A DNA stretch of 64,000 nucleotides from Prochlorococcus marinus (GTDB taxonomy: Bacteria > Cyanobacteriota > Cyanobacteriia > PCC-6307 > Cyanobiaceae), in contig NZ_CVSZ01000035.1 of the NCBI RefSeq assembly GCF_001180325.1, positions 1-64,000 of the forward strand. Reading direction: 5' to 3'. The notes below the pieces were generated by a model. That model was not told where the DNA came from, ran no database searches, and saw only the letters and a program-made list of their open reading frames with translations. This document shows, piece after piece, positions 25,306-50,603 of this stretch. Within the stretch, counting starts at the first letter, position 1. Each line of letters begins with the position of its first letter. The position numbers and the translations under genes are program-made.

Positions 25306-25384
25306 GCTCACCCGAAGATCACCCGTCTTTTTTTTACCATTTTGCAATGGATCTGACGTGATCCTGCTCACCCTTGTCTCACCC
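25306..25384 (+). repeat. Two pairs of 11-bp-spaced CTCACCC repeats
   Basis: GCTCACCC starts at 25306 and 25366; GATCACCC at 25317; TCTCACCC at 25377. Within each pair the starts are 11 bp apart, about one helical turn, and the two pairs are 60 bp apart. A third, diverged pair is at 26429. The regular phasing suggests protein binding sites, for example recombinase arm sites. Confidence 0.75.
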
Positions 25385-25397
25385 AGAGCATCTTGAC

Positions 25398-25433
25398 TGT
25401 CTCTATGGAGAAGTCGTAGGAAGTGTAGAGACA
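25398..25433. repeat. 8-bp inverted repeat, TGTCTCTA / TAGAGACA
   Basis: Perfect 8-bp arms at 25398-25405 and 25426-25433 with a 20-bp centre. It begins 13 bp after the second CTCACCC pair. A TGTCTC also follows the third CTCACC pair (26458-26463), so the block is a repeated composite. It is not followed by a T-run and is therefore not a terminator. Confidence 0.7.
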
Positions 25434-25578
25434 TCATAGAGAAAATGTTTCTAAATAATTTAAAATTTTTTTAAACTTTTTTTTGAGTTATACAATCACT
25501 AAAGGAAATTCTAAAATGTTTACATTTAAAGAATTTGCTATTAATTAATTTATTATCTTCCATTTAAATCATTAATTC

Positions 25579-26406
25579 ATGAATAAAAATATTGATCAAG
25601 ATGTCATAAATGATTTTGGTAAAGAGTGGGATACATATGATCAAAGTAAGTTGAATCTAAAATTAGATGAAGCATATTTACAATATTTTAATTTACTCCC
25701 AGAAAAATATTTAAATTCCAGTGCAATTGGATTTGATGCTGGATGTGGAAGCGGAAGGTGGGCAAAATTTGTGGCACCTAAGGTTAAAACTCTTTATTGT
25801 TTTGATCCCAGTCAAAAAGCGCTAAATGTTGCCCAAAGAAATTTGTCTAATTTTAATAATTGTTTTTTTGAATGTAAAAGCATTAATGAATTTTCTGTTT
25901 TAGATGAATCTATGGATTTTGGATATTGTTTAGGTGTTCTACATCATCTGCCTAATACATTAAGCGCTCTTTCTCATTGTGTTTCCAAATTAAAAAAAGG
26001 TGCTCCATTTCTACTATATATCTATTACAAATTTGATAATAAACCTCTTTGGTTTAAATTTATTTGGAGATGTGTAGATGTCATTAGAAAATTGATTTGT
26101 CGCTTTCCCTTTAAACTTAAATTAGTTATTACTAGATTAATAGCAATTGTAATTTATTTACCTTTGGCGAGACTTTCATTTTTTTTAGAATTGTTGGGCA
26201 TGAACGTTTCGAATATCCCTTTGTCTGATTACCGTAAGAAAACTTTTTATTTTATGTGCACGGATGCTTTAGATAGATTTGGAACAAAACTTGAAAAACG
26301 TTTTACTAAAGCGGAGATATCATCAATGATGATTAAATCTGGTTTGTCAGAAATAAAGTTTAGTAATTCGACTCCATTTTGGGTTGCAATTGGTTATAAA
26401 AAATAG
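25579..26406 (+). CDS. SAM-dependent class I methyltransferase
   Basis: 275-aa methyltransferase. Motif I is FDAGCGSGRWAKF near residue 52, followed by CFDPSQKALNVAQRNL (acidic post-I) and GYCLGVLHHLPNTLSALSHCVSKLKKGAPFLLYIYYKF. A hydrophobic segment near 190-205 (IAIVIYLPLARLSFFLELLG) may contact the membrane. Substrate unknown. It stands alone, with AT-rich flanks and repeat blocks on both sides (25306-25433 and 26429-26463), so I regard it as accessory cargo. Confidence 0.82.
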   Translation: MNKNIDQDVINDFGKEWDTYDQSKLNLKLDEAYLQYFNLLPEKYLNSSAIGFDAGCGSGRWAKFVAPKVKTLYCFDPSQKALNVAQRNLSNFNNCFFECKSINEFSVLDESMDFGYCLGVLHHLPNTLSALSHCVSKLKKGAPFLLYIYYKFDNKPLWFKFIWRCVDVIRKLICRFPFKLKLVITRLIAIVIYLPLARLSFFLELLGMNVSNIPLSDYRKKTFYFMCTDALDRFGTKLEKRFTKAEISSMMIKSGLSEIKFSNSTPFWVAIGYKK

Positions 26407-26428
26407 AATTTTTTAATTTTAATTTTAG

Positions 26429-26463
26429 TCTCACCTACTTCTCACCCAAGAAAAGTCTGTCTC
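26429..26463 (+). repeat. Third 11-bp-spaced CTCACC pair, diverged copy of the 25366-25403 block
   Basis: TCTCACCT starts at 26429 and TCTCACCC at 26440, again 11 bp apart. TGTCTC follows at 26458, 10 bp after the pair, compared with 13 bp in the left block. The order and spacing match the left copy, so the methyltransferase gene is bracketed by direct copies of one element. Confidence 0.65.
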
Positions 26464-26604
26464 GACAATGACATCAAACTTTCATCACACGAGAAAAATT
26501 TTATGTTACTTTAAATTAGAAATAATTATTTTTGCAATAGATTTGCAAGTTTCAAAATCTCTAGTTTTCTCTATGTTTTACGGAGTGGGATTAAGAGTAA
26601 GTTT

Positions 26605-26641
26605 GAAACCTAGTGAGAAAAAAATGCTTTCACTGGGTTTC
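26605..26641. repeat. Imperfect 12-bp hairpin
   Basis: GAAACCTAGTGA (26605-26616) can pair with TCACTGGGTTTC (26630-26641) with one G-U-type mismatch and a 13-base loop. No T-run follows, so an intrinsic terminator is unlikely. It may be an RNA element or part of the degraded insertion end. Confidence 0.5.
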
Positions 26642-26807
26642 ACACAAGAAAATCTGTGATTTAATACTCTCAAATGTGTTGCCATCATTCACTTTTCTTG
26701 CCTATTCTTTTACCATGACTATAGAGTGGTAGTAAGTATCCAAATTTTTTAAAAAATTTAAAGTTTTTTACTTATGCAAGAAATTTTTCAATGAGATTTA
26801 AAACGTA

Positions 26808-27521
26808 ATGCCCGATATTATTAAATTAAGTCGATCTACAGTTGAGAAATATCTTAGTTGTCCAAGATGTTGTGTTCTGGACAAAAAATATCAAATAAAA
26901 CCGCCATCATTACCATTTACCTTAAATATAGCTGTAGATAATTTATGTAAAAATGAATTTGATTATTATAGGAAAATTCAGGAGCCGCATCCTTTATTTA
27001 TTGAATATGGAATTGATGCTGTGCCTTTCAAACATAAAGATTTAGAACGCTGGAGAAGTAATTTTCAAGGGATAAGATATAAGTCAATTGAACACAACTA
27101 TGACTTTGGTGGAGCTGTAGATGATATTTGGCAGAAAAAAAATGGTCATCTTATTATCGTTGATGTAAAAGCAACATCTAGAAACAATTTTGATTGGTTA
27201 GAGACTTTTAATAAATACGAATATGCAAAAGCTTATAAAAGACAGTTAGAAATGTATCAATGGTTGTTTAAAAAAAACGGTTTTACAGTGGCTAAAGAAG
27301 CTTATCTTTTGTATTTCAATGGCAAGAAAAATGAAGAGTTTTTTAATAACCAATTAAATTTTGATATACATCTAATTAAATTAGATTGTTCTACTTCATG
27401 GGTAGAAAATAAGATAATAGATACTGTAAATTTATTACGTTCGGATAATTTCCCCAAACCTTCCTTAAATTGCGAATACTGTAATTATTTAAAGAAGCGT
27501 TGGCAGCTGTCGATAACTTAG
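26808..27521 (+). CDS. PD-(D/E)XK nuclease-superfamily protein (RecB/Cas4-like)
   Basis: 237 aa. The nuclease core reads GGAVDDIWQKKNGHLIIVDVKATS, giving the D...(D)xK motif near residues 105-125, followed by the QLEMYQWLFKKNG helix with the usual glutamine and tyrosine. Cysteines lie at the start (SCPRCCVLDKKY) and end (CEYCNYLKKRW) as in iron-sulfur RecB/Cas4 nucleases, though the spacing differs. No CRISPR array or cas gene is in the window, so it is a solo enzyme, perhaps in repair. Function is inferred from the fold only. Confidence 0.78.
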   Translation: MPDIIKLSRSTVEKYLSCPRCCVLDKKYQIKPPSLPFTLNIAVDNLCKNEFDYYRKIQEPHPLFIEYGIDAVPFKHKDLERWRSNFQGIRYKSIEHNYDFGGAVDDIWQKKNGHLIIVDVKATSRNNFDWLETFNKYEYAKAYKRQLEMYQWLFKKNGFTVAKEAYLLYFNGKKNEEFFNNQLNFDIHLIKLDCSTSWVENKIIDTVNLLRSDNFPKPSLNCEYCNYLKKRWQLSIT

Positions 27522-27601
27522 TATTAATAGAATAATTTTTTATATTTCTGGAAAAAGAGTGAATAAAAGATAATCTTTAATTAGATTAATAATTTAGACT
27601 T

Positions 27602-28210
27602 TTGATAAATTCGAAAAATTCTGAAAGAAAGCTAACTCATCATCTGCAACAAGATGTGGTCAAGTTATCTGGTAAAACAATTTTTATCAATCCTTTTTTA
27701 TACTGGCGGAGATTTGACGACAATACTAATAGATGGCTTAGAGAACCTGGTCAAATGTCCGAGGATCAAATCTCACCAAATAGGAACCGTTTTTATCCAG
27801 AAATAGAGTGGGATGATTTAAGTCATGAGCAAAAGCTCATAAAAGATGCAACTGTTGAGATGTTTTTAAAAACTCTTGAATTGATTAGCACATTTCATCC
27901 TTATCTTAGTTCCGGACAATTATTAGAAGTGGAGAGAAAAATGGCGATTACAAAAAAGATTCCTTTCGAAAAGTGGGTAACAAAATCTTTCGCCAAAAAA
28001 GCGAGATTGCTAGAAAATGAAAAAAGAAAATTTCAAAGAGAAAGATTTTATAGTAGCTGGAGGGAATGGTTCAGTCTAGTCAATACTCAACAAGCCATTT
28101 TACCGTTAATTGTCACGATATTTATTGCTGCATTTATTGGATGGTCTTTAGGGATATCTAAGAATAGTTGTAATCCTTATTTTGAACAAAATATAGAACA
28201 ATTAAATTAA
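27602..28210 (+). CDS. Hypothetical protein with C-terminal membrane anchor
   Basis: 202 aa from TTG 27602 (MINSKNSERKLTHH). The body is rich in charged and aromatic residues (FINPFLYWRRFDDNTNRWLREPGQ, EIEWDDLSHEQKLIKDATVEMFLKTLE) and has a basic helix (about 125-155). One transmembrane helix near 170-190 (AILPLIVTIFIAAFIGWSLG) is followed by a short tail, so most of the protein probably faces the cytoplasm. No known domain is recognised. The codon style matches its neighbours. Confidence 0.72.
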   Translation: MINSKNSERKLTHHLQQDVVKLSGKTIFINPFLYWRRFDDNTNRWLREPGQMSEDQISPNRNRFYPEIEWDDLSHEQKLIKDATVEMFLKTLELISTFHPYLSSGQLLEVERKMAITKKIPFEKWVTKSFAKKARLLENEKRKFQRERFYSSWREWFSLVNTQQAILPLIVTIFIAAFIGWSLGISKNSCNPYFEQNIEQLN

Positions 28211-28317
28211 TTTATTTTTGATCTCATTAAGTATCTAAGTAAATAAAATTTTGAAAAAATAAATTTATTATTTAGAATTCTATTAATTGAAATAATTACT
28301 TAAAAAATAAAAGTATT

Positions 28318-28461
28318 ATGAGTGAAAATTTAAGTTCAAATAATATTGAAAATGATGACTTTAATCCTGTCAATGAAGATCGTGATTATAAAGATTTAAT
28401 AAATAGACTTAATGAGATAAAATCAACCATCGCTTCAATAGAAAAAACAATATTTCAATAA
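28318..28461 (+). CDS. 47-aa acidic small protein
   Basis: ATG 28318 to TAA 28461. The product starts MSENLSSNNIENDDF and ends in a helical segment NRLNEIKSTIASIEKTIF. It lies 11 bp before the TTG at 28472 that may be the original mrdA start, so it could be the first gene of an mrdA operon. It was too short for normal ORF calling. Support is only an ATG, operon-like position and a plausible composition. Confidence 0.5.
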   Translation: MSENLSSNNIENDDFNPVNEDRDYKDLINRLNEIKSTIASIEKTIFQ

Positions 28462-28471
28462 ATCTATATTT

Positions 28472-30263
28472 TTGATAAAAACAAGTCCTAATAAAAAAAC
28501 TTATTTCATTAAAGAGACAGCCTTTAGTCTTACTTATTTTTTCTTCTGTATCATTTTTATTGATTCTTTGTAGGTTAATTTTTTTACAACTTTTAAATTA
28601 TGAATCTTTTAAGAAGATGTCAGATGAGAATAGGATCAGACTTATTGAGGAACAGCCAATACGTGGAAGAATAATAGACAAAAATGGTTATGTTTTAGCA
28701 GATAGTAGAGTTAAATATTCTTTGATAATAAAACCTCAATCTGTTAATAAAAGCAATTGGGAAAAACATAAATCAAGTATTTCTAACTTGTTAAATATTG
28801 ATAGTAATGAAATTCAAAAAAAATACTCTGATGGTCTAAAAAATCAGAAACTTTCAGTAATTATTCTTGATGATTTAAATGTAGATCAATTAATAAAATT
28901 TAAGGAGAATGAAGGTAATTTAATTAGTTTTGAAATAGCTACCAAATTAATTAGGAATTATCCTTATAAATCGCTTGCTGCCCATGTAATTGGTTATACT
29001 CAGCCAATTACTCAATTAGAATATAAATTCTTATCTAAGAAAGGTTATAAATTAAATGATTTAATCGGTAGAACTGGAATTGAATATGTTTACGAAGATT
29101 TTATAAGAGGTGAATGGGGTGGAGAAATGGTTGAAGTTAATTCATTAGGAAAATTTCAAAGATCATTGGGTATAAGACCTCCAGTACAAGGTAATGATAT
29201 TGAACTAACAATCGACCTTAAGCTGCAATTAGTTGCGGAGGAAGTTCTTAAAGATAAAAAAGCTGGAGCCATAATAGTGATGGATCCAAGAGATGGCGCA
29301 ATAAGAGCAATGACAAGTAAACCTACATTTGATTTAAATTTTTTCTCAAAGGATTTTAAACCTGAGAAAGAATATAATAAACTTTTTAATTCTCCCGAAA
29401 AACCTTTATTTAATAGAGCATTAAATGCCTACGACCCAGGAAGCGTTTGGAAAATTGTAACTGCTTTGGCTGGCTTGGAAAGTGGAAAATTCCCTAGAGA
29501 AACCATGTTAGAAACGAAACCATGTATAACTTATGGGAGCCAATGTTTTAGAGAGCATAATGATTTAGGCTTTGGGGTAATTGGTTATGAAGATGCTTTA
29601 AGAGTTTCAAGTAATACATTTTTTTATCAAGTAGGTTATGGAGTAGGAGTTGATGAAATTCATAAGGTCTCACGAAAGCTTGGTTTTAATAATCTATCTG
29701 GAGTTGAAATTTCTGAACAAGAAAATATAGGATTAGTAGCTAGTAGTGAATGGGCTGAAGAAGGCAGAGGATGGGGGCAACCAGGAAGTACCCCTTGGGT
29801 TCCAGAAGATATTGCGAGTATGTCTATTGGACAATTTGTTGTACAAGTTACCCCTATTCAAATAGCTAGAGCATATGCTGCAATTGCAAATGGTGGTTAT
29901 CTAGTTACTCCCTATTTAGTTAAAAAAGATAAAGAAAATCTTTCAGATAAAAAACGTATTCCAATTGACATTGATCCACAAAATCTTCAATTAATAAAAA
30001 GTGGTCTCAGAAAAGTAGTAGAGTCTGGCACAGGAGTATCAATTAATTATGGGGTTTCAAATTTACCTCCAGTTTCAGGCAAAACTGGAACTGCTGAAGA
30101 TGGTGAAGGTGGCTCAGATCACGCTTGGTTCGTTTGCTTTACTCCCTCTGAAAAAAGCGAATTACTTATAGTTGCTTTTGCACAAAATACTCCTGGTGGA
30201 GGATCTGTTCATGCACTGCCTATGGCTAGAGAAATTTTGAAAGTTTGGAATGAAAAAGAATAA
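28472..30263 (+). CDS. mrdA: Penicillin-binding protein 2 (possible frameshift near the start)
   Basis: Class B transpeptidase for lateral wall synthesis, anchored by an N-terminal helix. Motifs: dimerisation domain with QPIRGRIIDKNGYVLADS, SxxK in DPGSVWKIVTAL (Ser near residue 295 counted from 28560), SSNTF and KTGTAEDG. The transpeptidase frame is open from 28479, but its first usual start is TTG 28560, inside the membrane helix (QPLVLLIFSSVSFLLILCRLIF). A TTG at 28472 in another frame would give MIKTSPNKKTYFIK and join the helix if one A near 28511-28513 were absent. Start coordinate is therefore tentative. Confidence 0.85.
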
Positions 30264-30285
30264 TATTTTATTGGGTTTTAAATGC

Positions 30286-30810
30286 TTATGTTTTTAATTT
30301 TTTCATTTGTAAAAGTCTTTGAATAATATCTTCAATAGTTTTTGTATCTATAGGTTTACTATATGAGGACAAAAGTTGTCTCCCTAATACTTGACTTCCT
30401 AAATGCACTAATTGGATGCGTAATGTGGTTAGTAGTTCTAATCCTATGCCACCAGAGAATGTTGCAATTGCAATCGGTTGACCATTAAATAAATTCCTAA
30501 AGTCATCTCCCGAAATAGAAAGCCATGCTATGAAGTTGGAGAGAATGGGAGGTATAGATCCATTATATTCAGGCGCACAAATCACCCACCTCTCAATCTT
30601 GAAAAGCTTTGTTTTTAATTCTTTTATTTCATTTGGAATATTTTCTTTGCTGTGAATTCTTGGATTAAATAATGGAATATCAAGAGTGGTAAGATCTAAA
30701 ATTTCAGAACTAATTTTAAGTTCATTACTTTTTTCAAGAAATTTTTCAGAAAGTTCTAGATTTTTACCACAACTAGCCGTAATGATTATTAGATCTTTTG
30801 TTTCAGTCAT
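30286..30810 (-). CDS. NADPH-dependent FMN reductase family protein
   Basis: 174-aa flavodoxin-like reductase. Family marks: an N-terminal phosphate-binding strand-loop (IIITASCGKNLELSEKF), CAPEYNGSIPPILSNFIAWLS and FSGGIGLELLTTLRIQL. It follows flv1 by 17 bp on the same strand and probably supplies or uses reduced flavin with the flavodiiron proteins; this link is inferred from position. Confidence 0.86.
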   Translation of the reverse strand: MTETKDLIIITASCGKNLELSEKFLEKSNELKISSEILDLTTLDIPLFNPRIHSKENIPNEIKELKTKLFKIERWVICAPEYNGSIPPILSNFIAWLSISGDDFRNLFNGQPIAIATFSGGIGLELLTTLRIQLVHLGSQVLGRQLLSSYSKPIDTKTIEDIIQRLLQMKKLKT

Positions 30811-30827
30811 AAATTAGATAAATAAAT

Positions 30828-32630: not shown

Positions 32631-32676
32631 TTTAAAGACTTATTTTTTAGTAATAGTTTCCGACTTATTAGTCGTG

Positions 32677-32775
32677 GTAAGGTGTCATATGGACTTTCAA
32701 CGGATTTTCAACTATCGACCAGAACGTTTAGTTCTCGTGAAACCGTTATGTATCAGTAGATTATACCTATAACAG
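32677..32775 (+). repeat. Spaced-repeat element, copy A (flv intergenic region)
   Basis: About 100 bp closely matching copy B at 33769-33870. Its core has two (G/A)A(T/C)TTTCAAC repeats with starts 11 bp apart (32692 and 32703), then TATCGACCAGAA and an inverted repeat AGAAC (32721-32725) / GTTCT (32731-32735) around a 5-base centre. In copy B the arms change to AGAAT/ATTCT together, so pairing is conserved. A 27-codon frame runs through it but is open only in this copy. Confidence 0.82.
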
Positions 32776-32836
32776 CACCATAAATGAGTTATTAAATGTA
32801 GGGTTTCCAACTGGACCGCGATTTCTTCTTGATTAT

Positions 32837-32986
32837 CTAAGCAAATTGATGATTCTTATAAATTTTTCTGTAATCATCATGTAATCTTTCTGTTGCTAAT
32901 CTTCTATTGTTATTCATTGCATCTCTAATCAAATCTATTTCATGGAAGTTTTGAGTGAGAATAGTGAAAGGAGTAATGAGTTTCAT
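32837..32986 (-). CDS. 49-aa small protein with strong ribosome binding site
   Basis: ATG at 32986 reading left to a TAG ending at 32837. It is preceded by an almost perfect Shine-Dalgarno sequence (AGGAGG, 5-6 bases before the ATG), which is rare in this AT-rich window. The product is MKLITPFTILTQ then FHEIDLIRDAMNNNRRL, ATERLHDDYRKIYKNH: helical, charged, no signal or membrane helix. I recall similar tiny proteins in Prochlorococcus. Function unknown. Confidence 0.72.
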   Translation of the reverse strand: MKLITPFTILTQNFHEIDLIRDAMNNNRRLATERLHDDYRKIYKNHQFA

Positions 32987-33053
32987 AAGACCTCCTATAT
33001 CTGCACTTATATTGTCCTCCTTTTTACTTGAAATTCATAGGGTATTTCTACCC

Positions 33054-33198
33054 AAGTATTAGTGCTTTGTGGTAGTCACGACTATCATTTTTCATTCAGT
33101 AAGAGTAGAAATAATTCAGGAGTCAAAAGCACTTCATCGACTTTGTGGACAGCGAGGAGCATACGACTCGAAGAGGGCGAATAAATGCCCTCTTATTT
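33054..33198 (+). ncRNA. Candidate small RNA ending in an intrinsic terminator
   Basis: The stretch between a GGGTA-TTTC-TACCC hairpin (33040-33053) and the terminator at 33171-33198 has no good gene. It carries a short inverted repeat (CGAG 33153 / CTCG 33167) directly before the terminator. Codons of the overlapping 66-codon frame run through the terminator, which argues against that frame. The 5' end is a guess. Confidence 0.4.
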
Positions 33199-33203
33199 TA
33201 TTC
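33171..33203 (+). terminator. Rho-independent terminator
   Basis: Perfect 8-bp stem AAGAGGGC (33171-33178) with GCCCTCTT (33187-33194), an 8-base loop, followed by ATTTTATTCTT. It is the clearest intrinsic terminator in the window. It lies upstream of the thiamine-binding gene, so it ends a separate short transcript. Confidence 0.75.
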
Positions 33204-33295
33204 TTAGGAAACTTTTACGGGTTTACTTTGCCAAATTCTTTGGATCTTGAGCATTTAGAATTTAAATAGTTAGATTTATCAAAAAATAAAAAATT

Positions 33296-33589
33296 ATGTT
33301 TGTAAGTATTGATTTGTGCTTAGTCCCGATTGGTGTTGGAACTTCTTTGTCGCCTTATATAAAAGAGTGTATTGAAATAATAAAAAACGAAGGACTCAAC
33401 TATGAATTAGGGGCGAATGGCACTGCAATAGAAGGAGATTGGGATAAAGTGTTTGAATGTGTTAAGAAGTGTCATGAAAAAATTCATTCAAAAGGTGCTC
33501 CTAGAATTTATACAACGATGAAAGTAAATACAAGAACTGATAAAGAACAAAAATTCTCAGATAAAGTAAGAAGTGTATTAGAAAAGTAA
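33296..33589 (+). CDS. MTH1187/YkoF-type thiamine-binding protein
   Basis: 97-aa protein of the MTH1187 (DUF77) family: MFVSIDLCLVPIGVGTSLSPYIKE, ELGANGTAIEGDWDKVFECVKKCHEKIHSKGAPRIYTTMKVNTR. Members form a ferredoxin-like fold and some bind thiamine; here the role is inferred. It sits between two repeat copies (A and B) in the flv1-flv3 intergenic spot. Its TAA overlaps the ATG of a 36-codon ORF (TAATG). Confidence 0.83.
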   Translation: MFVSIDLCLVPIGVGTSLSPYIKECIEIIKNEGLNYELGANGTAIEGDWDKVFECVKKCHEKIHSKGAPRIYTTMKVNTRTDKEQKFSDKVRSVLEK

Positions 33590-33699
33590 TGGAAAGAGAA
33601 AGTAATTACGATAATGATGGATTAGATCCATCCGAAGAATATTTCAGAAACAAGAAAAAAGGTAATGACGAGGAAACATATTTCTCTCCAGAAGAATAA
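33589..33699 (+). CDS. 36-aa acidic small protein coupled to the thiamine-binding gene
   Basis: ATG 33589 overlaps the preceding stop by one base, typical of translational coupling. The product starts MERESNYDNDGLDPSEEYF and ends in ETYFSPEE. It is short, acidic and without a membrane segment. Two (S/P)xEEYF-like ends suggest a motif, but no family is recognised. Evidence is the TAATG junction and the composition. Confidence 0.5.
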   Translation: MERESNYDNDGLDPSEEYFRNKKKGNDEETYFSPEE

Positions 33700-33768
33700 G
33701 TACCGCCGCATTATTAAAAGTATTAGTAAATTTGTTAAAGGATAATTGGCAAATAAAATTTTGGATTT

Positions 33769-33870
33769 GTAAGAAATATGTAGGACCGATTTTCAACTAA
33801 TTTTCAACAATCGACCAGAATATTTAATTCTTTGGAAAACATTGAGTATCCATTGAGTATAACTATACAG
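33769..33870 (+). repeat. Spaced-repeat element, copy B (flv intergenic region)
   Basis: Second copy of the element at 32677-32775. The TTTTCAAC repeats start 11 bp apart (GATTTTCAAC at 33789, AATTTTCAAC at 33800, counted to the nearest base). The inverted repeat is AGAAT (33817-33821) / ATTCT (33827-33831) with a 5-base centre; the paired change relative to copy A keeps complementarity. Similarity continues into the GAGTATAACTATACAG end. Confidence 0.82.
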
Positions 33871-33964: not shown

Positions 33965-34318
33965 TCAGATTTTATTTTTATTTTTGTCTTTATTTTTTTT
34001 CCATATCTCATATCTTTCTTTTGCTGCCTCTTTCATAGCGTTTTGATTATTTTCCAATTTATCAATATTGGACTGTTTCTGCTCACTTGCGCTTTTTTTA
34101 CTATTCCCACTTTTTTTACTATCCCCACTTTTTTTACTTGCGCTTTTTTTACTATCCCCACTTTTTTTACTATCCCCCCCTTCTTTTGCTAAAAGTTCTT
34201 TTGAATCTTCATAAATTTGTAAATTATTTAAGTAATTTAAAGCATCTGAAGTTTGCCCTATGCTAAAAAAAAGTAGCATTGTTGAGAAGAAAATAATCTT
34301 TAAAGTTTTTAGTCTCAT
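33965..34318 (-). CDS. Secreted Lys/Ser repeat protein
   Basis: 117 aa with a signal peptide (MRLKTLKIIFFSTMLLFFSI, cut near GQTSDA). Residues about 48-80 are built from a repeated SKKSGD / SKKSAS unit of six residues, giving a strongly basic, flexible tail, followed by a charged helix rich in N/K/E. It lies between repeat copies B and C. Codon use and the degenerate repeats suggest fast-changing accessory sequence. No function known. Confidence 0.65.
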   Translation of the reverse strand: MRLKTLKIIFFSTMLLFFSIGQTSDALNYLNNLQIYEDSKELLAKEGGDSKKSGDSKKSASKKSGDSKKSGNSKKSASEQKQSNIDKLENNQNAMKEAAKERYEIWKKNKDKNKNKI

Positions 34319-34624
34319 AATTTAACTATTAATTTTTCTAAATTATATAAATTCTTAATAAAAAAATTTTGTTTTTATAAAGAAACGCTTAATTATAAAT
34401 TTTCAGAAGATCTAAATTAAATGATTTTTATCAAATACTATTTTAATAAATCCATATAAAAGGTTGATTGTGGAGATTAATTTTTCAACTGATTTTCAAC
34501 TATAAATCAAAAAAACCTAGTTATAACTTCAATCTATATTTTTTAAATGAAATGAAAGGTATAATTTTTTTATCTTAAGTTAGTTATACCAATCATTTCT
34601 AAAAAAACTAAGTAGTAAATCTAG
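34319..34624. other. Intergenic gap before flv3, holding a partial repeat copy
   Basis: 306 bp of AT-rich DNA with no ORF of note. At 34482-34500 two TTTTCAAC repeats again start 11 bp apart, followed by a diverged tail and the palindrome AGTTATAACT (34519-34528). I see no clear promoter for the leftward gene. The rest of the gap is featureless to me. Confidence 0.6.
34475..34528 (+). repeat. Spaced-repeat element, copy C (partial)
   Basis: TTTTCAAC at 34482-34489 and 34493-34500, starts 11 bp apart, inside ACTGATTTTCAAC-like context as in copies A and B. The following TATCGACCAGAA segment has decayed to TATAAATCAAAA, and the short inverted repeat is lost. AGTTATAACT ends the match region. 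Partial or degenerate copy. Confidence 0.65.
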
Positions 34625-36400
34625 TCAGTAGTGATTAGCAACTTTTCTATGATGGACTGCTGTTTTGCATGATAAATCAGAAACATTACCATTTTCAACA
34701 ATTCCGTAAATTATCCAATGGTCTGGGGTCTCCAGTCTGGAACTAACTTTACAATCTAAAAAGGCAAGTGAATCTGATAGAACCGGTCCTCCTTCTGCGA
34801 TGTTACTAATTACATCTACATCTGCAAACCTATCAGCTCCAGGGGCAAATCTTTTTAAAAAATGTCTGAACATTTTTTGATAGTTATCTTCTCTCAGAAT
34901 ATTCACAACAAAACCTTCCCCAACTTGCATATATGATTCAATAGCTCTATCTTTTGCTACTGCAACTGTAATGCCTGGTGGAGAAAAGCTTGCTTGACTA
35001 ACCCAACTTGCGACCATTGCACTTTGTCTAAATGTAGAACCTTCGCCTTGGCTCGCTGTAACTACATATAATCCACCACTTAATCTCCCTAACGCTTTAT
35101 CTAAATTTGAATCAAGGCTCTTCATAGAGGCAATATTCTTCTTTTTATTGATCAATTGACCCAAGTCAGTTCCAGCTTCTTCGAATTGTTGATAAATGAT
35201 GGGATCTGGAATATTTTTAACTCTTAAGGGAGAGAAAGCTTCTTTTTGCCCAAGTTCTCTTAATTTATTTGCTAAGGAATCTATAGGTTCATCATTTCCA
35301 CCAAATGCATCATAAACTGCAGTAAATTGTTTTGGTTTTAGTGCTGCAAATAAAGTACCTAGTGATTCTTTCAATTCATTATCTGAGTCTACTGGCCATG
35401 TGGGTATGACTACTGCTTTTGATTCGGAAATTAAACTTGCTAATTCTTGCGGGTCAGAAGATCTTAAATCAATTAACTGAACCTGAGCATCTGCTTTGCT
35501 TATTCCATGAGATATCGCTTGACTTAGTCGATCACAATAACCATAGTCGCTTATGTAGCAGACTGACACAAAATCATTGCCTTTGCTTTTATTACTACTC
35601 CATTCTAGATATTTTCCTTTCCAAAAATTGACCTGATTATGGAGCAAAGGCCCATGACCAACAGCTATTGTTTTTAATTCAGGTAGCTTATCTATTCTTT
35701 TGATTGCCTGCATAACGCTTCTAGCGTTTGGACCCATCAGGCAATCGTAATAAAAACGGAAATCATCGTATATTTCTTTTTGATCAGTGTCAAAAAATTC
35801 GTCAGAACAATAATGCAGTCCAAATGCATCGCATGTATAGAGAACATTTGTGCTGTGATCATATGAAAATATGGTATCTGGCCAATGTAAATTTGGTGCA
35901 CTTATAAATTCAATATTATGTTCTAAACCACTTTTAGGATTTGTTCCAAGATTTAAAAACTCTCCACTCTTAACCTCTAGACGCATAAAGGGAATATGTA
36001 TTTGGTCTTCAATAAATTTAAGGGCTAATTTTGATCCAACTATTGTAATATTTTGATTTAATTCTAAAAGTTTACCTATTAAACCAGAATGATCAGGTTC
36101 TGTATGGCTCGTAATTAGATAATCAACTTCTTGCAGATTAACCTTTTTCAGTAATTCTTCAAACCATAATTCTTCGAACTTTGCGTGACTAGTGTCAATA
36201 ATTGCTAGTTTTTCGCCTTTAATAATAAAACTATTGTAAGTAGTTCCATTTCTCAAACCAAATTCAATATCAAATCTACTGCGATCCCAATCCAAAGATC
36301 TTATGGCACAAGAATCATCAGCAAAGTTTTGAGATTGAACCGTCAATTTGTTATAAGTTTGTGCCAATTTAGAATTACTTGTCTGGGCAGAGGCTATCAT
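34625..36400 (-). CDS. flv3: Flavodiiron protein Flv3 (canonical diiron ligands)
   Basis: 591 aa with the same three-domain layout as flv1. The diiron ligand segment is intact: ITSHTEPDHSG (HxExDH), with further ligands around PNLHWPDT and GHGPLLH. Flavodoxin domain: CYISDYGYCDRLSQAISHG. C-terminal flavin reductase domain: VASWVSQASFSPPGITVAVAKD. The canonical ligands identify it as Flv3-type. The two flv genes have the same orientation; the gap between them is occupied by accessory genes. Confidence 0.91.
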   Translation of the reverse strand: MIASAQTSNSKLAQTYNKLTVQSQNFADDSCAIRSLDWDRSRFDIEFGLRNGTTYNSFIIKGEKLAIIDTSHAKFEELWFEELLKKVNLQEVDYLITSHTEPDHSGLIGKLLELNQNITIVGSKLALKFIEDQIHIPFMRLEVKSGEFLNLGTNPKSGLEHNIEFISAPNLHWPDTIFSYDHSTNVLYTCDAFGLHYCSDEFFDTDQKEIYDDFRFYYDCLMGPNARSVMQAIKRIDKLPELKTIAVGHGPLLHNQVNFWKGKYLEWSSNKSKGNDFVSVCYISDYGYCDRLSQAISHGISKADAQVQLIDLRSSDPQELASLISESKAVVIPTWPVDSDNELKESLGTLFAALKPKQFTAVYDAFGGNDEPIDSLANKLRELGQKEAFSPLRVKNIPDPIIYQQFEEAGTDLGQLINKKKNIASMKSLDSNLDKALGRLSGGLYVVTASQGEGSTFRQSAMVASWVSQASFSPPGITVAVAKDRAIESYMQVGEGFVVNILREDNYQKMFRHFLKRFAPGADRFADVDVISNIAEGGPVLSDSLAFLDCKVSSRLETPDHWIIYGIVENGNVSDLSCKTAVHHRKVANHY

Positions 36401-41111: not shown

Positions 41112-41232
41112 TTTATATTTAGTGGTTAATAAATGTTTTTGAAAATAACTCAAAACAATATCTTTTATTTTAATGATTACTTGCCAAGTTACCACCTAAA
41201 AGCTGAATATACATAGAGTGATTATCAACTAA

Positions 41233-41691
41233 ATGACTAAAGAAAGAACCTTTATTGCAATTAAACCAGATGGAGTTCAAAGAGGATATGTTGCTGAGAT
41301 TATTGGCAGATTTGAAAAAAAAGGATTTAAATTAGTTGGATTAAAGCAATTAATTCCTTCAAAAGATCTTGCTCAAAATCATTATGGAGTACATAGAGAA
41401 AGACCCTTTTTTGGTGATTTAGTAGACTTTATTTCCAGTGGTCCTGTTGTAGCAATGGTGTGGGAAGGCGAAGGAGTTATTTTGAGTTCTAGAAAACTAA
41501 TAGGTGCGACAAAACCTCTGGAAGCAGAGCCTGGAACAATAAGAGGAGATTTAGCTGTTGATATTGGGAGGAATATTATTCATGGTTCTGATGGAGAAGA
41601 TACAGCAAAATTTGAAATTGATCTATGGTTTAACGAAGAGGAATTATGTCAGTGGGAAACTTCTGACGCGAAATGGCGATCTGAAAATTAA
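41233..41691 (+). CDS. ndk: Nucleoside diphosphate kinase
   Basis: Transfers phosphate between nucleoside tri- and diphosphates. 152 aa, hexamer/tetramer-forming family, with [15 protein letters not shown] at the start, [10 protein letters not shown] and the active-site histidine in NIIHGSDG (His117). The start ATG is close to the 5' end of divergent speA. It ends 3 bp before the convergent thiO stop. Confidence 0.97.
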
Positions 41692-41694
41692 AAT

Positions 41695-42804: not shown

Positions 42805-42883
42805 TTAAAAATTAATATTTTTATTTGTGTTTTGGTCCTCTTTTCCTTTATATCCAATAATATTAATAAAGAGACTTTTAATA

Positions 42884-44356
42884 ATGAACAATTTGGAATC
42901 TTGGGAAGCTGTGATTGGTTTGGAAACTCATGTACAGCTTAATACGAAAAGTAAAATATTCACATCTGCGTCAACAGCTTTTGGTGATGCACCTAATACG
43001 CATATAGATCCTGTAGTTTGTGGGTTACCAGGAACTCTTCCAGTTCTGAATGAGACTGTTCTTGAGTATGCTGTAAAAACTTCGTTAGCATTAAATTTAA
43101 ACGTTGCAGAACATTGTAAATTTGATAGAAAACAATATTTTTATCCTGATCTACCTAAAAATTATCAAATTTCACAATTTGATGAGCCACTAGCTGAAAA
43201 TGGTTGGTTAGAGGTTGAAATAATTGAAAAGGACAAAGAACCTTATATCAAAAAAATTGGTATAGAGAGGCTACATATGGAAGAAGACGCCGGAAAACTA
43301 GTCCATTCAGGAAGTGATAGATTAGCTGGCTCTAAGTATTCTTTAGTTGATTACAATCGTGCCGGAATAGCACTTTGTGAGATTGTAAGTAAACCTGATA
43401 TTAGATCAGGTAAAGAGGCATCTGAATATGCTTCAGAGATTAGAAGAACAGTAAGATATCTAGGGGTATCAGACGGAAATATGCAAGAGGGTTCATTACG
43501 CTGTGATGTCAATATTTCAGTTAGAAAAGGACCTAATGCTCCCTTTGGTACCAAAGTGGAAATAAAAAATATGAATTCATTTTCTGCAATTCAAAAGGCT
43601 TGTGATTATGAAATAGCTAGACAAATAGAAGTTTATGAAAATGGAGGAAAAATTTTCCAAGAAACAAGGTTATGGGATGAAGCTAAGCAATTAACGAAAA
43701 GCATGAGATTAAAAGAAGGTAGCAGTGACTATAGATATTTTCCTGATCCTGACTTAGGTCCAATTGAAATAACAAAAGCCCAACAAGAAATATGGTTTAA
43801 AGAACTACCAGAATTACCTTCAAAGAAAAGAAAGAAATTCGTAAGTCAATTTGGGTTGTCTGCATATGATGCAAGGGTAATTACTGATGAAATAAGCATG
43901 GCAAACTTTTTTGAAGAAACAGTAGCAAATGGTGCCGAGGCCAAACTAGCTTCAAATTGGGTAACAAGTGATATTGTGGGCTATTTAAAATCAAACAAGC
44001 TAAGTTTTAGTGAATTAAAGCTTAGTCCTGAAAATCTTGCTGAAATGATTAACATGATTTCAAAAAATATAATTAGTGGAAAAATTGCAAAAGAAATTTT
44101 ACCTGAACTTATTCAAAAAAATATTTCTCCGAAAAAATTAGTTGAAGAAAAAGGGTTGGCAATGATATCTGATTCTTCAAGTATTTTACCAATAATTGAT
44201 GAACTTATAAATGAACATCCAAATGAAGTTCAAGCATTTAAAAATGGCAAAACTAAGTTACTTGGTTTTTTTGTTGGTCAACTTATGAAAAGAACAAAAG
44301 GTAAAGCTGATCCTAAACTTGCAAATAAACTTCTTATGGAAAAATTAAATAGCTAA
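42884..44356 (+). CDS. gatB: Aspartyl/glutamyl-tRNA(Asn/Gln) amidotransferase subunit B
   Basis: Part of the GatCAB complex that amidates misacylated tRNAs; binds the tRNA and presents the acyl group. I start at ATG 42884 (490 aa, MNNLESWEAVIGLETHVQL). The longer frame from 42827 adds 19 hydrophobic residues that do not fit. Motifs: VIGLETHVQLNTKSKIF, DRKQYFYPDLPKNYQIS, EIKNMNSF and DYRYFPDPDLGP. It carries the GatB/YqeY C-terminal domain. Convergent with coaE. Confidence 0.95.
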   Translation: MNNLESWEAVIGLETHVQLNTKSKIFTSASTAFGDAPNTHIDPVVCGLPGTLPVLNETVLEYAVKTSLALNLNVAEHCKFDRKQYFYPDLPKNYQISQFDEPLAENGWLEVEIIEKDKEPYIKKIGIERLHMEEDAGKLVHSGSDRLAGSKYSLVDYNRAGIALCEIVSKPDIRSGKEASEYASEIRRTVRYLGVSDGNMQEGSLRCDVNISVRKGPNAPFGTKVEIKNMNSFSAIQKACDYEIARQIEVYENGGKIFQETRLWDEAKQLTKSMRLKEGSSDYRYFPDPDLGPIEITKAQQEIWFKELPELPSKKRKKFVSQFGLSAYDARVITDEISMANFFEETVANGAEAKLASNWVTSDIVGYLKSNKLSFSELKLSPENLAEMINMISKNIISGKIAKEILPELIQKNISPKKLVEEKGLAMISDSSSILPIIDELINEHPNEVQAFKNGKTKLLGFFVGQLMKRTKGKADPKLANKLLMEKLNS

Positions 44357-44359
44357 AAC

Positions 44360-44977
44360 TTAAAGAAGCTCTTTTATCGTATTGATCCATTTATTTTGAT
44401 TATCCGAATTCTCTAAAATAATATCTGAGAATTTTCTTTTTTCTTCAAAACTTAATTGAAAATTTATCAATGCATATGCTTCTTTTTCGCTAATTTTATC
44501 TCTTGTGATAAGTCTGTTTTTTTGTATTTCTTTAGAACATTTAACTAACCATATTTCAGTGCAAATATCTTCAAATTTTGCTTCAAACAATAATGGAATA
44601 ACCAATACTATAGTTTGATTATTTCTGTATTGACTGCATTCTTCTATCATTCTTTCTTTAATTAATGGGTGAAGTAGTTTTTCAATCCATTCCTTGCTAG
44701 CTGAATGTTTAAAAATAATGTTCCTTAAAAGTTTTCTGTTTATTTTCCTTTCTGAATTGCTTTTATTATCAATAATTTTATTTCCAAAATAATCTAAAAT
44801 CTTTTTATATCCATATGTATTTGGTTTGATTAATTCTCTTGAAAAATGATCTGCATCTAAAATTGGTATGTTTTTATGTTTTCTAATGTAATTAGTTATG
44901 GTTGTCTTCCCACTTGCAATACCTCCTGTTAAACCAATCCTTCTTTGGTTGTTTTTTAATTTTTGAAGAATGTCCAT
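44360..44977 (-). CDS. coaE: Dephospho-CoA kinase
   Basis: Last step of CoA synthesis: ATP-dependent phosphorylation of dephospho-CoA. 205 aa with the P-loop GLTGGIASGKTT, DADHFSRELI and VIPLLFEAKFE. P-loop-type kinase fold, C-terminal helical end. It is convergent with gatB (3-bp gap) and divergent from argJ (76 bp). Confidence 0.93.
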   Translation of the reverse strand: MDILQKLKNNQRRIGLTGGIASGKTTITNYIRKHKNIPILDADHFSRELIKPNTYGYKKILDYFGNKIIDNKSNSERKINRKLLRNIIFKHSASKEWIEKLLHPLIKERMIEECSQYRNNQTIVLVIPLLFEAKFEDICTEIWLVKCSKEIQKNRLITRDKISEKEAYALINFQLSFEEKRKFSDIILENSDNQNKWINTIKELL

Positions 44978-45053
44978 ACAATTAATAATAATCTAATTAC
45001 TTAGTTTCTTTAGTATTAAAGAGTAGTTAGTATGAATTAAAATACCAAAAAGT

Positions 45054-46292
45054 TTGAGCCAGATAGATTCCAATTGGTCGTTTGTTGATGACAGTAAGGT
45101 AACACCTAAGGGTTTTCTTTTTGCTGGTATATCTGCTGGTTTAAAAGCTTCTAATAAAAAAGATTTAGCACTAATACTCGCTCCAGAAGGAAGTATTTTT
45201 AGTGGGATGTTTACCCAATCAATAGTTCGAGCTTCTTGTGTGGATATTTGTGAGGAAAGGATTAAAACAACTTCAGGTTTTGTAAGAGCAATACTAATTA
45301 ATTCTGGTCAAGCAAATGCCTGTACAGGAAATCTTGGCATTCAACATTTTCAAATTGCTACAGGAAAGATTGCGGAACTTTTAGGAATAAAAGAAGAAGA
45401 GGTTTTAATGTGCTCAACTGGTGTAATTGGTGTTCCAATACAAATAAATGATTTAGTAAAAAATTTACCGAATTTAGTTAGTGATTTAAAGGATAATAAT
45501 TTTGAAAATGCAGCAGAAGCAATTTTAACTACTGATTTGACTTTGAAAAAAGTGTCAATAGAGACGATTATTCAAGGTAGAAAAATAAAAATAGCAGGAT
45601 TTGCAAAAGGTTCCGGAATGATTTACCCCAACATGGCTACAATGCTTGCTTTTCTAACCATTGATGCGGGAATACAAAAAGAAGAATGGGACAAAATGAT
45701 TGCTATTGCGGTTCAAAAATCTTTTAATGCAATATCAGTTGATGGAGAGACAAGCACAAATGATTCTTTTGTTGGAATAAATGCAGGAGAGAAAATTGAA
45801 AAAAGGTTTTTTCCAATTATCCAGAAAGGGATTGATATTGTATGTCAGAACTTGGCAAAAAATATTGCAAGGGATGGAGAGGGAGCAAATTGTTTATTAG
45901 AAGTTTTGGTTCAAGGAGCAAAAAATACAGATGATGCAATTATGCTCGCGAAATCTATTTGTAATTCTGCTTTGGTAAAAACTGCGATACATGGTTGTGA
46001 TCCGAATTGGGGACGAATTATTTCCGCTGCAGGTAATTCTGGAGTTAAATTTAATTTAAATGACGTTGACTTGTATATAGGAAACGCTCAGATTTTGGAA
46101 AATGGCAAGTTAAATAAATATGATCCACAAAAAGTCACAGACTATATTAAGTCCAGAATGAAAGGTAGATATTTAGTAGATGATATTGTAAAAATTATGA
46201 TTAATCTAAATTCTGGCGAATCGAAAGGCACAGCTTGGGGGTGCGATCTTTCTAAAAAATATGTTGAAATTAATAGCGAGTATACAACTTAG
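45054..46292 (+). CDS. argJ: Bifunctional ornithine acetyltransferase / N-acetylglutamate synthase
   Basis: ArgJ recycles the acetyl group in arginine synthesis. 412 aa from TTG 45054 (MSQIDSNWSFVDD). The precursor is cleaved before the nucleophile threonine in KGSGMIYPNMATMLAF (Thr196). Also GDGEGANCL-like (ARDGEGANCLLEVLV) and HGCDPNWGRIISAAGNSG. Complete. The last 26 bp (46266-46291) recur almost unchanged at 48056-48081, on the far side of the next gene. Confidence 0.95.
   Translation: MSQIDSNWSFVDDSKVTPKGFLFAGISAGLKASNKKDLALILAPEGSIFSGMFTQSIVRASCVDICEERIKTTSGFVRAILINSGQANACTGNLGIQHFQIATGKIAELLGIKEEEVLMCSTGVIGVPIQINDLVKNLPNLVSDLKDNNFENAAEAILTTDLTLKKVSIETIIQGRKIKIAGFAKGSGMIYPNMATMLAFLTIDAGIQKEEWDKMIAIAVQKSFNAISVDGETSTNDSFVGINAGEKIEKRFFPIIQKGIDIVCQNLAKNIARDGEGANCLLEVLVQGAKNTDDAIMLAKSICNSALVKTAIHGCDPNWGRIISAAGNSGVKFNLNDVDLYIGNAQILENGKLNKYDPQKVTDYIKSRMKGRYLVDDIVKIMINLNSGESKGTAWGCDLSKKYVEINSEYTT
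46266..46291 (+). repeat. Direct repeat, left copy (argJ 3' end)
   Basis: 26 bp beginning GAAATTAATAGCGA and ending ACTTA. It matches the right copy at 48056-48081 at 24 of 26 positions. The left copy is inside argJ and supplies its last eight codons and part of the stop. This is the arrangement expected when an element integrates at the 3' end of a gene and restores it. Confidence 0.85.
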
Positions 46293-46420
46293 CTCAGATC
46301 CATTGCGCTGCAAGGAGTTTGGGCAAATAAGAAAGGATGTGAAACACTAATAAAACAGTGCTTTAGTGAAAGCAATAACTTTCAGCGAGAAAAACCTAAA
46401 TAAAACACTAAATATTGAGT

Positions 46421-47689
46421 TTATTTGAGTTGATAAACTGCTAAATCTTTTGTTTTAAGATCTCCAAGCGCGACTTTTTCTAGTCTTTCTAATCTCGCTA
46501 AAAGTGCATCATTTTGAGCAATAATATTTTTGTTATTTTCTTTCAAATCAGCAATTTCTTCTTTTAATTCTTTTGTTTCTTTCATACTAATTTGAGTAGG
46601 TTTTGTTGCCTTACCTAACTTCCATACAAACCCTGCTCTCGCAGAAAAAGTATCTTCAAAATCACCTGCGTAATCTTGACCTGGCATAGTCATTGATGCA
46701 GCATAGTTAATTGATAATTTGTCATTAACTTTAGAAGCACAACCACCAGAAAAAGCAAAATCACCTCCATGAGTTCCAGTTCCTAATCCGCAAGCGAGAG
46801 TTGTATCTGTTGGAACTGTTGGTAATCCAGTTAAAGCAGCACTTAATGCACCAACATTATTAATTGATTGTTCTACATCTCTTCCATTGATAAGTAACTT
46901 GGTTCCATTTGTATAGTCGATTGGAATTGAATTACCGTTAGCATCTTTCGCATAAACTTTTTGTCTTCCATTTTCTTCTTTTGTGATCCATGAGTTTTTA
47001 CCAATATGTAATTCTCCATTTGCTTTTTTTGTAATTAATGGTTCTCCATCAATTGCGAGTCCCTCTGAAGTTATATCAATGTCATTTTCATCTGTTCCAA
47101 TCTGGATAGTGCCATCAGCATTTTTAGTAATAACAGCAGCACCATCAATATTCAAACCATCTGCAACTACATCGATATCGTCACCATCCGCACCTAGTTG
47201 AATAGTCCCATCATTATTTTGTTTAATCATTGTTTCTCCGTTACTGCCTCCACTAGTTATTTCTGATGTTTTAATCCTAAGTAATTCACTATCTCCATCA
47301 TTTGTTAGAACAATACTTCCATCAGATGGTCCTCCTCCGATGGAGGGTCTTTGAAAAATAGTCATTTCTCCCACTCCTGACGCTGTTATTGTTGTATCTC
47401 TCCAAGTATTGGTTGACCAGTTATAAACGTGATATTGATGGTTTCCAGTAAAAACAAATATTTCACCGGTATTTGAGCTTATAAAACTATTTCCTGCATT
47501 GTAGCTGTTTCCACTAAATGCCTTTTCAGAGAGCAATGTTCTTGTTCCATTTGTGCTATCAATTCCGTAAATATAATTTGTATTATTTCCGCTGGATTGT
47601 ATTCCAAAAGCATCATAGTCAGCCTTTGCAGGACTAGTGCTAACTACAAAAATCATACTAGCGGCTATAGAAGAGTAAAGATTTCTCAT
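46421..47689 (-). CDS. YadA-like trimeric surface protein with C-terminal coiled coil
   Basis: I start at ATG 47689 (MRNLYSSIAASMIFVVSTSPAKA, signal peptide); an upstream ATG at 47731 adds 14 residues that make it look less like a signal. Residues about 140-240 hold two near-copies of a ~33-residue unit (GTIQLGADGDDIDVV... / GTIQIGTDENDIDIT...), a passenger-like repeat. Then a region resembling the YadA membrane anchor (LSAALTGLP ... ACGLGTGTHGGDFAFSGG ... SARAGFVWKLG). A coiled coil (KEEIADLKENNKNIIAQNDALLARLERLEK) follows the anchor, which is unusual. It lies in the direct-repeat-flanked segment. Confidence 0.78.
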   Translation of the reverse strand: MRNLYSSIAASMIFVVSTSPAKADYDAFGIQSSGNNTNYIYGIDSTNGTRTLLSEKAFSGNSYNAGNSFISSNTGEIFVFTGNHQYHVYNWSTNTWRDTTITASGVGEMTIFQRPSIGGGPSDGSIVLTNDGDSELLRIKTSEITSGGSNGETMIKQNNDGTIQLGADGDDIDVVADGLNIDGAAVITKNADGTIQIGTDENDIDITSEGLAIDGEPLITKKANGELHIGKNSWITKEENGRQKVYAKDANGNSIPIDYTNGTKLLINGRDVEQSINNVGALSAALTGLPTVPTDTTLACGLGTGTHGGDFAFSGGCASKVNDKLSINYAASMTMPGQDYAGDFEDTFSARAGFVWKLGKATKPTQISMKETKELKEEIADLKENNKNIIAQNDALLARLERLEKVALGDLKTKDLAVYQLK

Positions 47690-48074
47690 AATTTTATATT
47701 TAAAATTTATACATTTTAGAAAAAGATCCAAAAGATTATGAGTGTTTATACTTAGGGAAGAAGAATAAATTAACTTTCAGTAATATGTGTTTATTACTTA
47801 ATTTAAAAATCTAGTAGGAAATTCCCATTCCCCTTCTTAAAGACGAATACTCACCTTTGGTATGAATGTGATTATTCTGTGATTACGGATAAGATCACAG
47901 AAATTTAACCTTATTCTTTCAAGGGTTTTTATTTGAAATCTAAAACTGTGATTATTATTTGCCTAACTGCGATTATGGTGTGATTATTTTCTAAAAATTC
48001 ACCTAAGTGATAGCAATTGATTACAGCATGGTGTATATACTATTTGCCCTAGGTGGAAATTAATAGCGAATATA
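47690..48074. other. Intergenic region between the YadA-like gene and the parA-linked ORF
   Basis: 385 bp without a gene. It holds five TGTGATTA-type repeats (47867-47988), an inverted repeat CTGTGAT/ATCACAG (47877-47900), a TGATTACAGC near 48018 and the right copy of the argJ repeat at its end (from 48056). The upstream half (47740-47860) is AT-rich and should contain the promoter of the leftward surface gene. Confidence 0.65.
47867..47988 (+). repeat. Array of TGTGATTA repeats with 11-bp phasing
   Basis: 10-bp repeats TGTGATTATT or close variants start at 47867, 47878, 47947, 47968 and 47979. The pairs 47867/47878 and 47968/47979 are exactly 11 bp apart, and 47947 to 47968 is 21 bp. CTGTGAT (47877-47883) and ATCACAG (47894-47900) are inverted around a 10-base centre. 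This resembles iterons or recombinase arm sites. Confidence 0.78.
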
Positions 48075-48081
48075 CTACTTA
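48056..48081 (+). repeat. Direct repeat, right copy
   Basis: Second copy of the argJ 3'-end repeat, 24 of 26 identical, 1,790 bp from the left copy. The bases following it (TTTTAGTAAATC) belong to the end of the leftward ORF at 48075, whose stop lies inside the repeat. Confidence 0.85.
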
Positions 48082-50598: not shown

Positions 50599-50603
50599 GG
50601 ACA

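Follow-up and report, generated by a model that had tools for sequence, protein, structure and literature searches.

Three intergenic spots in one stretch of a Prochlorococcus marinus genome raise the question of what kind of DNA could lie beside three different genes, differ in sequence from spot to spot and still follow a single plan. The stretch (the window) comprises 64,000 nucleotides, positions 1 to 64,000 of contig NZ_CVSZ01000035.1, and comes from a genome of 1.44 Mb in 93 contigs that is 86.7% complete. The spots lie after guaA, between two flavodiiron (flv) genes and between argJ and parA. An initial annotation, made from the sequence alone, had described in each of them pairs of short repeats 11 bp apart together with a short inverted repeat. 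We found all of these where it had placed them, every pair having a start-to-start distance of 11 bp. We propose that the three spots are non-autonomous integrative elements which site-specific recombination has placed at the 3' ends of guaA, flvB and argJ, and that the pairs are arm-type sites of an integrase. We consider this reading very probable. In what follows, L and G numbers are our labels for loci and genomes.

Each spot is a site that can be empty or occupied. At guaA, 21 of 49 named relatives have an empty site (at most 90 bp) and 28 a filled one (210-3950 bp). For the flv locus, 80 close relatives, Prochlorococcus or uncultured Synechococcaceae, were collected through a flavodiiron protein search; the spacer between the two flv genes is at most 30 bp in 62 of the 79 evaluable named loci and measures 303-5733 bp in the other 17. 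At argJ, under a strict rule, 26 of 66 named relatives match the empty-site sequence and 40 do not, and 11 of 30 further parA loci (window included) show an empty argJ-parA spacer of 168-171 bp. The cargo had been taken for small and strain-variable, and this holds: relatives are empty, filled or loaded with other cargo.

The occupied sites also carry a duplicated gene end. In the window, the guaA 3' end with its stop codon (25251-25265, plus strand), which would be the gene-side attachment core, was recognised by comparing gene ends with relatives. The insert that follows (25266-26735, no strand assigned) appears from the same comparison to hold an element with methyltransferase cargo and then, probably, a short remnant element. 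Degenerate guaA-end copies lie on the plus strand at 26580-26594 (3 of 15 mismatches) and at 26721-26735 (2 of 15), the latter being the outer right boundary; these two copies suggest two elements in tandem. At a tolerance of 4 of 15 mismatches the guaA-end motif gives 28 matches on both strands of the whole window, those elsewhere being chance occurrences. A guaA-end copy, ATTGAGTGGGAGTAA, closes most filled guaA sites. The filled flv sites start with a decayed flvB-end copy and finish with the intact gene end, located in the window at 32648-32667 (plus strand; seen by eye against relatives and missed by a scan allowing 6 mismatches) and at 34625-34644 (minus strand; gene-side core from gene-end comparison). 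The argJ 3' end, identified likewise as gene-side core (46270-46292, plus strand), has a second copy at 48060-48082 on the same strand, which forms the right boundary and continues into the DNA found directly after argJ when the site is empty; most filled argJ sites end in the same way. The spots had been called unrelated. Their sequences do differ, but all three are places at the 3' end of a gene where DNA has inserted and the gene end is present twice.

All the repeat pairs of the window lie on the plus strand, between these boundaries. The guaA insert has a proximal pair CTCACCC/ATCACCC (25307-25324, starts 25307/25318), found at the same place in the integrase-bearing locus L169, a distal pair CTCACCC/CTCACCC (25367-25384, starts 25367/25378; motif scan and L169 alignment) and a right-side pair CTCACCT/CTCACCC (26430-26447, starts 26430/26441; motif scan). 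Among guaA left ends in general, the pairs begin about 38-42 bp and 97-107 bp past the stop codon. The flv insert shows a left-type pair CTTTCAAC/TTTTCAAC followed by TATCGACCAGAAC (32694-32712, starts 32694/32705), a TTTTCAAC pair at 33790-33808 (starts 33790/33801) and a right-type pair TTTTCAAC/TTTTCAAC (34482-34500, starts 34482/34493). The middle one probably marks a junction of two elements, since by eye the DNA upstream resembles a right end and the DNA downstream a left end. In the argJ insert we found an inexact left-side pair AAACACT/AAACAGT (46340-46360), a distal pair TGTGATTA/TGTGATTA (47867-47885, starts 47867/47878) and a proximal pair TGCGATTA/TGTGATTA (47968-47986, starts 47968/47979).

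We then counted such pairs in 105 insert ends (51 guaA, 34 flv and 20 argJ; 6 from the window and the rest from relatives, short inserts being taken whole). A pair was defined as an exact 7-mer repeated at a start-to-start distance of 11 bp, with spacings of 8-25 bp compared and shuffled sequences as the null. Pairs at spacing 11 occur in 25 of 51 guaA ends, 20 of 34 flv ends and 10 of 20 argJ ends, while every other spacing gives at most 2; the shuffle means are 0.55, 0.25 and 0.15, respectively, and the largest shuffled value is 3. In this count, as in those of shared cargo, of the non-coding module and of integrase remnants given below, the window (L127) and G047 (L138, L158) are entered twice where applicable, and L053 and L166 apparently come from one genome. 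When near-copies were merged by single-linkage clustering, spacing-11 pairs remained in 11 of 33 guaA, 4 of 7 flv and 4 of 14 argJ clusters, with at most 1 for other spacings; loci lacking both flv anchors were skipped here and in the control counts.

The annotation had asked for a comparison with shuffled controls and conserved intergenic DNA. A first control set of intergenic DNA had a spacing-11 pair in 15 of 369 chunks, and 15 such pairs on the argJ side were the third spot itself. The control was therefore cleaned by removing all DNA beyond the 3' end of argJ and, for loci that did not include guaA, also the DNA left of the PBP or flv gene. In the cleaned set spacing-11 pairs occur in 0 of 309 chunks (49.8 kb), other spacings giving 0-10 (10 at spacing 18). 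Moreover, among argJ left ends of about 105 bp each, a pair is found in 15 of 40 filled sites and in 0 of 26 empty ones. The common spacing thus stands far above both shuffles and control DNA, and, on the material examined here, the grouping proposed in the annotation was not refuted by its own test.

The inverted repeats fare differently. They do exist, at 25398-25405/25426-25433, 32721-32725/32731-32735 and 47877-47883/47894-47900. However, inverted repeats of at least 7 bp occur in 15 of 51 guaA ends (shuffle mean 9.6, maximum 17), 14 of 34 flv ends (5.9, maximum 10) and 9 of 20 argJ ends (4.7, maximum 8). Only the guaA one, TGTCTCTA/TAGAGACA (25398-25433, plus strand), was seen to fall within a block that integrase-bearing elements conserve; in guaA-type elements this block separates the distal pair from the integrase gene. 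Taken together, such repeats are at most modestly commoner than chance predicts, and we do not retain them as a shared feature.

If the inserts are mobile, an enzyme should be found somewhere. No tyrosine recombinase was found in the window inserts, and the window genome has no PF00589 match among the matches listed. This absence is weak evidence, since the genome is incomplete and also lacks a recombinase of about 389 residues that is seen in many relatives. In other genomes the enzymes are present. A Pfam scan of 121 genomes gave, among the matches listed, long tyrosine recombinases near the sites, and five loci bear them: L157 and L160 at flv, L159 and L161 at guaA, and L158 at argJ. These proteins of about 450-530 residues are encoded beside the gene end; four of the five pass the Pfam cut-off, the fifth being just under it, and all five match PHROG integrases. 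In the compared set, integrases are 37-63% identical within one site and 20-28% between sites. Their elements can reach 5.6-6.6 kb.

Later searches covered 249 genomes of the genus and 300 of the family. Within the genus, guaA-type integrases are found in 5 genomes, all five directly after guaA, flv-type integrases in 8 genomes, with 7 of 9 integrases at flvB, and the argJ type in 1 (G047). The other two flv-type integrases lie after a trmD-like gene (L179, by eye) and elsewhere (L181), which suggests further gene-end sites. In the family, guaA-type matches occur in 13 genomes and flv-type matches in 8; the integrase is at guaA in 8 of 12 new guaA-type genomes, and at flvB in 5 of 7 new flv-type ones. 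The pairs are also found at these loci: 12 of 13 guaA-type loci have one in the stretch from guaA to the integrase, and 6 of 12 flv-type loci one in the stretch from flvB to the integrase, other spacings giving at most 2 in either case (second rows of split integrases, L180 and L202, left out). At the thirteenth guaA-type locus, L171, a pair is seen by eye and was removed by the complexity filter. The annotation had suggested testing whether the spots coincide with variable cargo and with recombinases encoded elsewhere; they do, the recombinases being encoded at the same sites in other genomes. Its idea of an integrase-less family is right for the copies in the window, but integrase-bearing versions occupy the same sites elsewhere.

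Repeat units recur between integrase-bearing and integrase-less elements. The guaA left end of the window is 78% identical to that of L169 over 181 bp, and the aligned part preserves the two CTCACC pairs as well as most of the TGTCTCTA/TAGAGACA block. The TTTTCAAC pairs of the flv element also occur in the integrase-bearing L157, L174 and L177, and GGTTTCCC pairs are common to L029/L037 and L120, thus again to integrase-less and integrase-bearing elements. Within the window's own genome, TTTTCAAC-pair patterns match solely at the flv spot, in one orientation (3 and 2 places). Among the 121 genus genomes the exact TTTTCAAC pair occurs at 13 places in 10 genomes: 10 places are at the flv locus by their flanking genes and one (G012) by sequence, and the remaining two (G020, G116) closely resemble each other and show no apparent relation to it. 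A series of decay can be followed as well, with a broken flv integrase in L053 and a 44-residue fragment (41% identical) in L081. No integrase remnants were found in the 20 named guaA inserts longer than 500 bp, and only G047 matches an integrase among 21 argJ insert entries, some of them partial. The 11-bp plan is not general to tyrosine recombinases: in 30 mixed recombinase loci (L097-L126), at least one spacing-11 pair occurs in 5 loci, and clear tandem pairs beside a gene end only in L120, which is at guaA. One of these loci, L119, is the L169 element, present there without its end.

How would such elements move? The tyrosine recombinase of about 450-530 residues would be encoded by an autonomous element that belongs to the same site family and resides in other cells of the population. 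This enzyme would recognise the core at the gene end and join the circular element to it, so that the gene retains a complete end and the spare copy marks the far boundary. The pairs near the core could serve as arm-type sites, with a unit that differs between element families; their sequence, spacing and position fit this role. A step of 11 bp is about one helical turn and would place the next unit on nearly the same face of the DNA. Copies like those of the window would have lost the integrase and kept the ends, and their movement would be expected only with a matching integrase in trans, in the argJ case one that would also have to be supposed. The annotation had suggested that each cassette could have its own recognition sequence. 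The repeats do differ and look recognition-like, but they lie inside the element, at guaA about 40 and about 100 bp from the stop codon, where arm-type sites would be, and they are probably not the crossover point.

Several observations weigh against this proposal. Binding, an excision circle and movement are things that we infer, not events that were observed. The exact 7-mer rule finds a pair in only about half of the insert ends, and in no more than the 15 of 40 filled argJ left ends mentioned above. Some guaA inserts (e.g. L022, L055) have no pair, and others (e.g. L067, L075) show by eye no clear second gene-end copy, so that other insert types or decay would be mixed in. The models of arm-binding domains match none of the integrases (Pfam, 5 integrases; NCBIfam, 4); the PHROG integrase profile starts at about residue 40-49 in three of five. 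Within a single guaA element, the same unit tends to be found on the left and on the right (36 of 2000 permutations), with only 5 elements, and with the right end of the second, short element taken as the window's right end; at flv, where units are alike, no such tendency is visible (1196 of 2000 permutations). The only argJ integrase found, in G047, sits with a unit other than that of the window. Four weaker guaA-type matches, L191-L194, do not adjoin guaA within the DNA examined, and two flv-type ones (L199, L200) are not at flvB. The inverted repeats contribute little, as seen above. Finally, inserts could spread with no integrase involved, by homologous recombination in the DNA on either side.

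This last point leads to the alternative that has to be taken most seriously, namely that the inserts are relics whose present spread depends entirely on homologous recombination in the conserved genes around them, the pairs being leftovers with no function today. The rarity of integrases (5, 8 and 1 of 249 genomes), the missing PF00589 match in the 86.7% complete window genome, the recurrence of cargo modules at different sites and the window flv array, which looks fused at a pair, would all suit it. On the other hand, copies that lack the integrase still preserve the pairs and their spacing, with units that vary at a single site, and several genera of the family contain versions with an integrase. 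We regard this reading as a minor possibility, rather unlikely.

Regulators of the OmpR/PhoB type bind direct repeats about one helical turn apart, and a period of 11 bp would suit them. One could thus take the pairs for operator sites, all the more so as the argJ-side pairs of the window are upstream of the gene at 46421-47731. Yet no pairs are present at the 26 empty argJ sites or in the 309 control chunks, pairs stand at both ends of inserts with a sequence that changes between elements at one site, and in 12 of 13 guaA-type loci they lie between the gene end and the integrase. Regulator sites are therefore very improbable, and we set them aside. Still less credible are integron-like cassettes (CALIN, clusters of attC sites lacking integron-integrases) moved by an integron integrase: the arrays do look like cassettes without a local integrase, but the TIGR02249 integron integrase model gives 19 bits (cut-off 265) for one of four integrases and no match for three, and the boundaries are copies of a specific gene end, no search for attC sites having been made. 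Miniature inverted-repeat transposable elements were also set aside, on the grounds that the boundaries consist of copies of a gene end and the sites are fixed, with no search aimed specifically at terminal inverted repeats.

Returning to integrative elements with arm-type sites, one would wonder whether they are already known. In the titles and abstract openings of a limited library, none names guaA, flv or argJ insertion sites in these cyanobacteria. Tycheposons of Prochlorococcus were reportedly described by Hackl et al. (2023, Cell), and genomic islands or integrative and conjugative elements of other bacteria are known to insert at the guaA 3' end. The cited excerpts on the latter also give guaA as integration site and, as far as listed there, those islands bear an integrase, unlike most elements here (PMC9376610, PMC7775301). 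According to a second-hand description, tycheposons are 4-200 kb elements at one of 7 tRNA genes (PMC10872708); the excerpts also mention tRNA-associated elements of picocyanobacteria (PMC10872708, PMC10187409) and count tycheposons among proposed phage satellites (PMC11389934). Like them, the present elements would be integrative, carry cargo, are associated with a tyrosine recombinase and form variable-gene islands of Prochlorococcus. Against that description, they sit at the 3' ends of protein genes, mostly lack the integrase and are smaller, the window inserts having 1.5-2 kb and most others well under 4 kb, although the integrase-bearing ones of 5.6-6.6 kb would fit.

In the lambda system, as excerpted, the N-terminal domain of the integrase binds arm-type sites away from the core (PMC4880445), and recombinases of mobile elements are said to have gained an arm-binding domain (PMC8138268). 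The likeness to these outlines includes a core at the insertion point, repeated flank sites and a large recombinase. Gene-end insertion with a duplicated core and an empty-site counterpart was found at all three spots. Unlike lambda-type systems, the present elements arrange their units as tandem pairs with a step of 11 bp, and these units take many sequences at a single site. The window copies, having no tyrosine recombinase, can be filed only as non-autonomous relatives. The integrase family cluster158946 of marine picocyanobacteria is described in the excerpt as typically near tRNA-Phe or tRNA-Cys (PMC10187409). It resembles the present enzymes as a tyrosine recombinase of the same organisms, often with a serine recombinase nearby, as in L159; by that description, its sites are different from ours. 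No tRNA genes were found in the scanned integrase loci at guaA, flvB and argJ (L190 and L201 lie outside the scan), and a transfer-messenger RNA (tmRNA) gene stands beyond parA in L158. In a PDB profile search, integrase A1 matched four sequences of the Int/integrase kind (E at most 9.1e-5), a XerA (1.9e-4) and, more weakly, two other Xer proteins (0.044, 0.067), and integrase A2 had no match. Neither did two integrases against 50,697 phage records, and viral contigs searched with three integrases and the flv left-end pattern confirmed no relative, single-protein searches reaching close relatives only.

The three sites have cargo in common. Across 530 bp, the argJ insert L135 matches the flv insert of the window at 86%, and it matches guaA inserts at 88-91% across 408-429 bp. 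A non-coding module, roughly 230 bp long and with a GAGGGC/GCCCTC hairpin (32979-33215 in the window, plus strand), belongs to the inserts of each site; among the entries examined, 14 of 23 at flv, 4 of 22 at guaA and 2 of 21 at argJ contain it. It has no match in Rfam. When compared with column shuffles, a mild control, the consensus fold of the module proves stable (z -9.2), with no compensatory changes on both sides in any base pair; judged from sequence, the module is possibly a mobile small RNA. The module occurs in either orientation, and its hairpin is terminator-like. One could go further and imagine a distributed cassette system in marine picocyanobacteria, in which several gene ends are fixed docking sites, each of them has a rare integrase lineage that acts in trans, the 11-bp units, diversified among many integrase-less cassettes, are, and the core is not, the keys that decide which integrase moves which cassette, and cargo such as the RNA-like module is swapped between sites. 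This is a tentative idea, to which we would give clearly less than an even chance.

Even so, the simple signature of units repeated in tandem at 11 bp, next to a gene end that occurs twice, could help to find small elements without any recognisable mobility gene. As the host is a very abundant photosynthetic organism, such elements could explain part of the small-scale gene turnover between similar Prochlorococcus cells. They also raise the testable question of whether one rare integrase can move many integrase-less cassettes, the variable units setting who moves whom.

The genes carried in the window are diverse. The guaA insert encodes a methyltransferase-domain protein of 275 residues (25579-26406, plus strand). 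The flv insert encodes a thiamine-binding protein (TIGR00106) of 97 residues (33296-33589, plus strand) and has an open reading frame of 117 residues with no Pfam match (33965-34318, minus strand). The argJ insert encodes a protein of 436 residues with a weak YadA-anchor match (46421-47731, minus strand); the 5' part of its gene (47400-47690) matched the window's own locus alone among the 30 parA loci with 1.5-kb flanks. The argJ units, too, vary widely between genomes. At guaA sites of relatives (L022, L033, L039, L055, L064, L067, L069 and L075), recurring open reading frames of about 490-540 residues resemble by eye TPR-sulfotransferases. In the autonomous elements, one protein of the flv element combines ParB-like and DNA methyltransferase domains (L157:12584-14122), and the guaA element holds the serine recombinase (resolvase) at L159:11565-12242. 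Elsewhere in the window, positions 5119-5369 hold a 39-bp unit repeated in tandem (6.4 copies, 97% matches), which resembles coding DNA rich in Gly and Tyr, and a permuted cyanobacterial tmRNA gene lies at 50345-50618.

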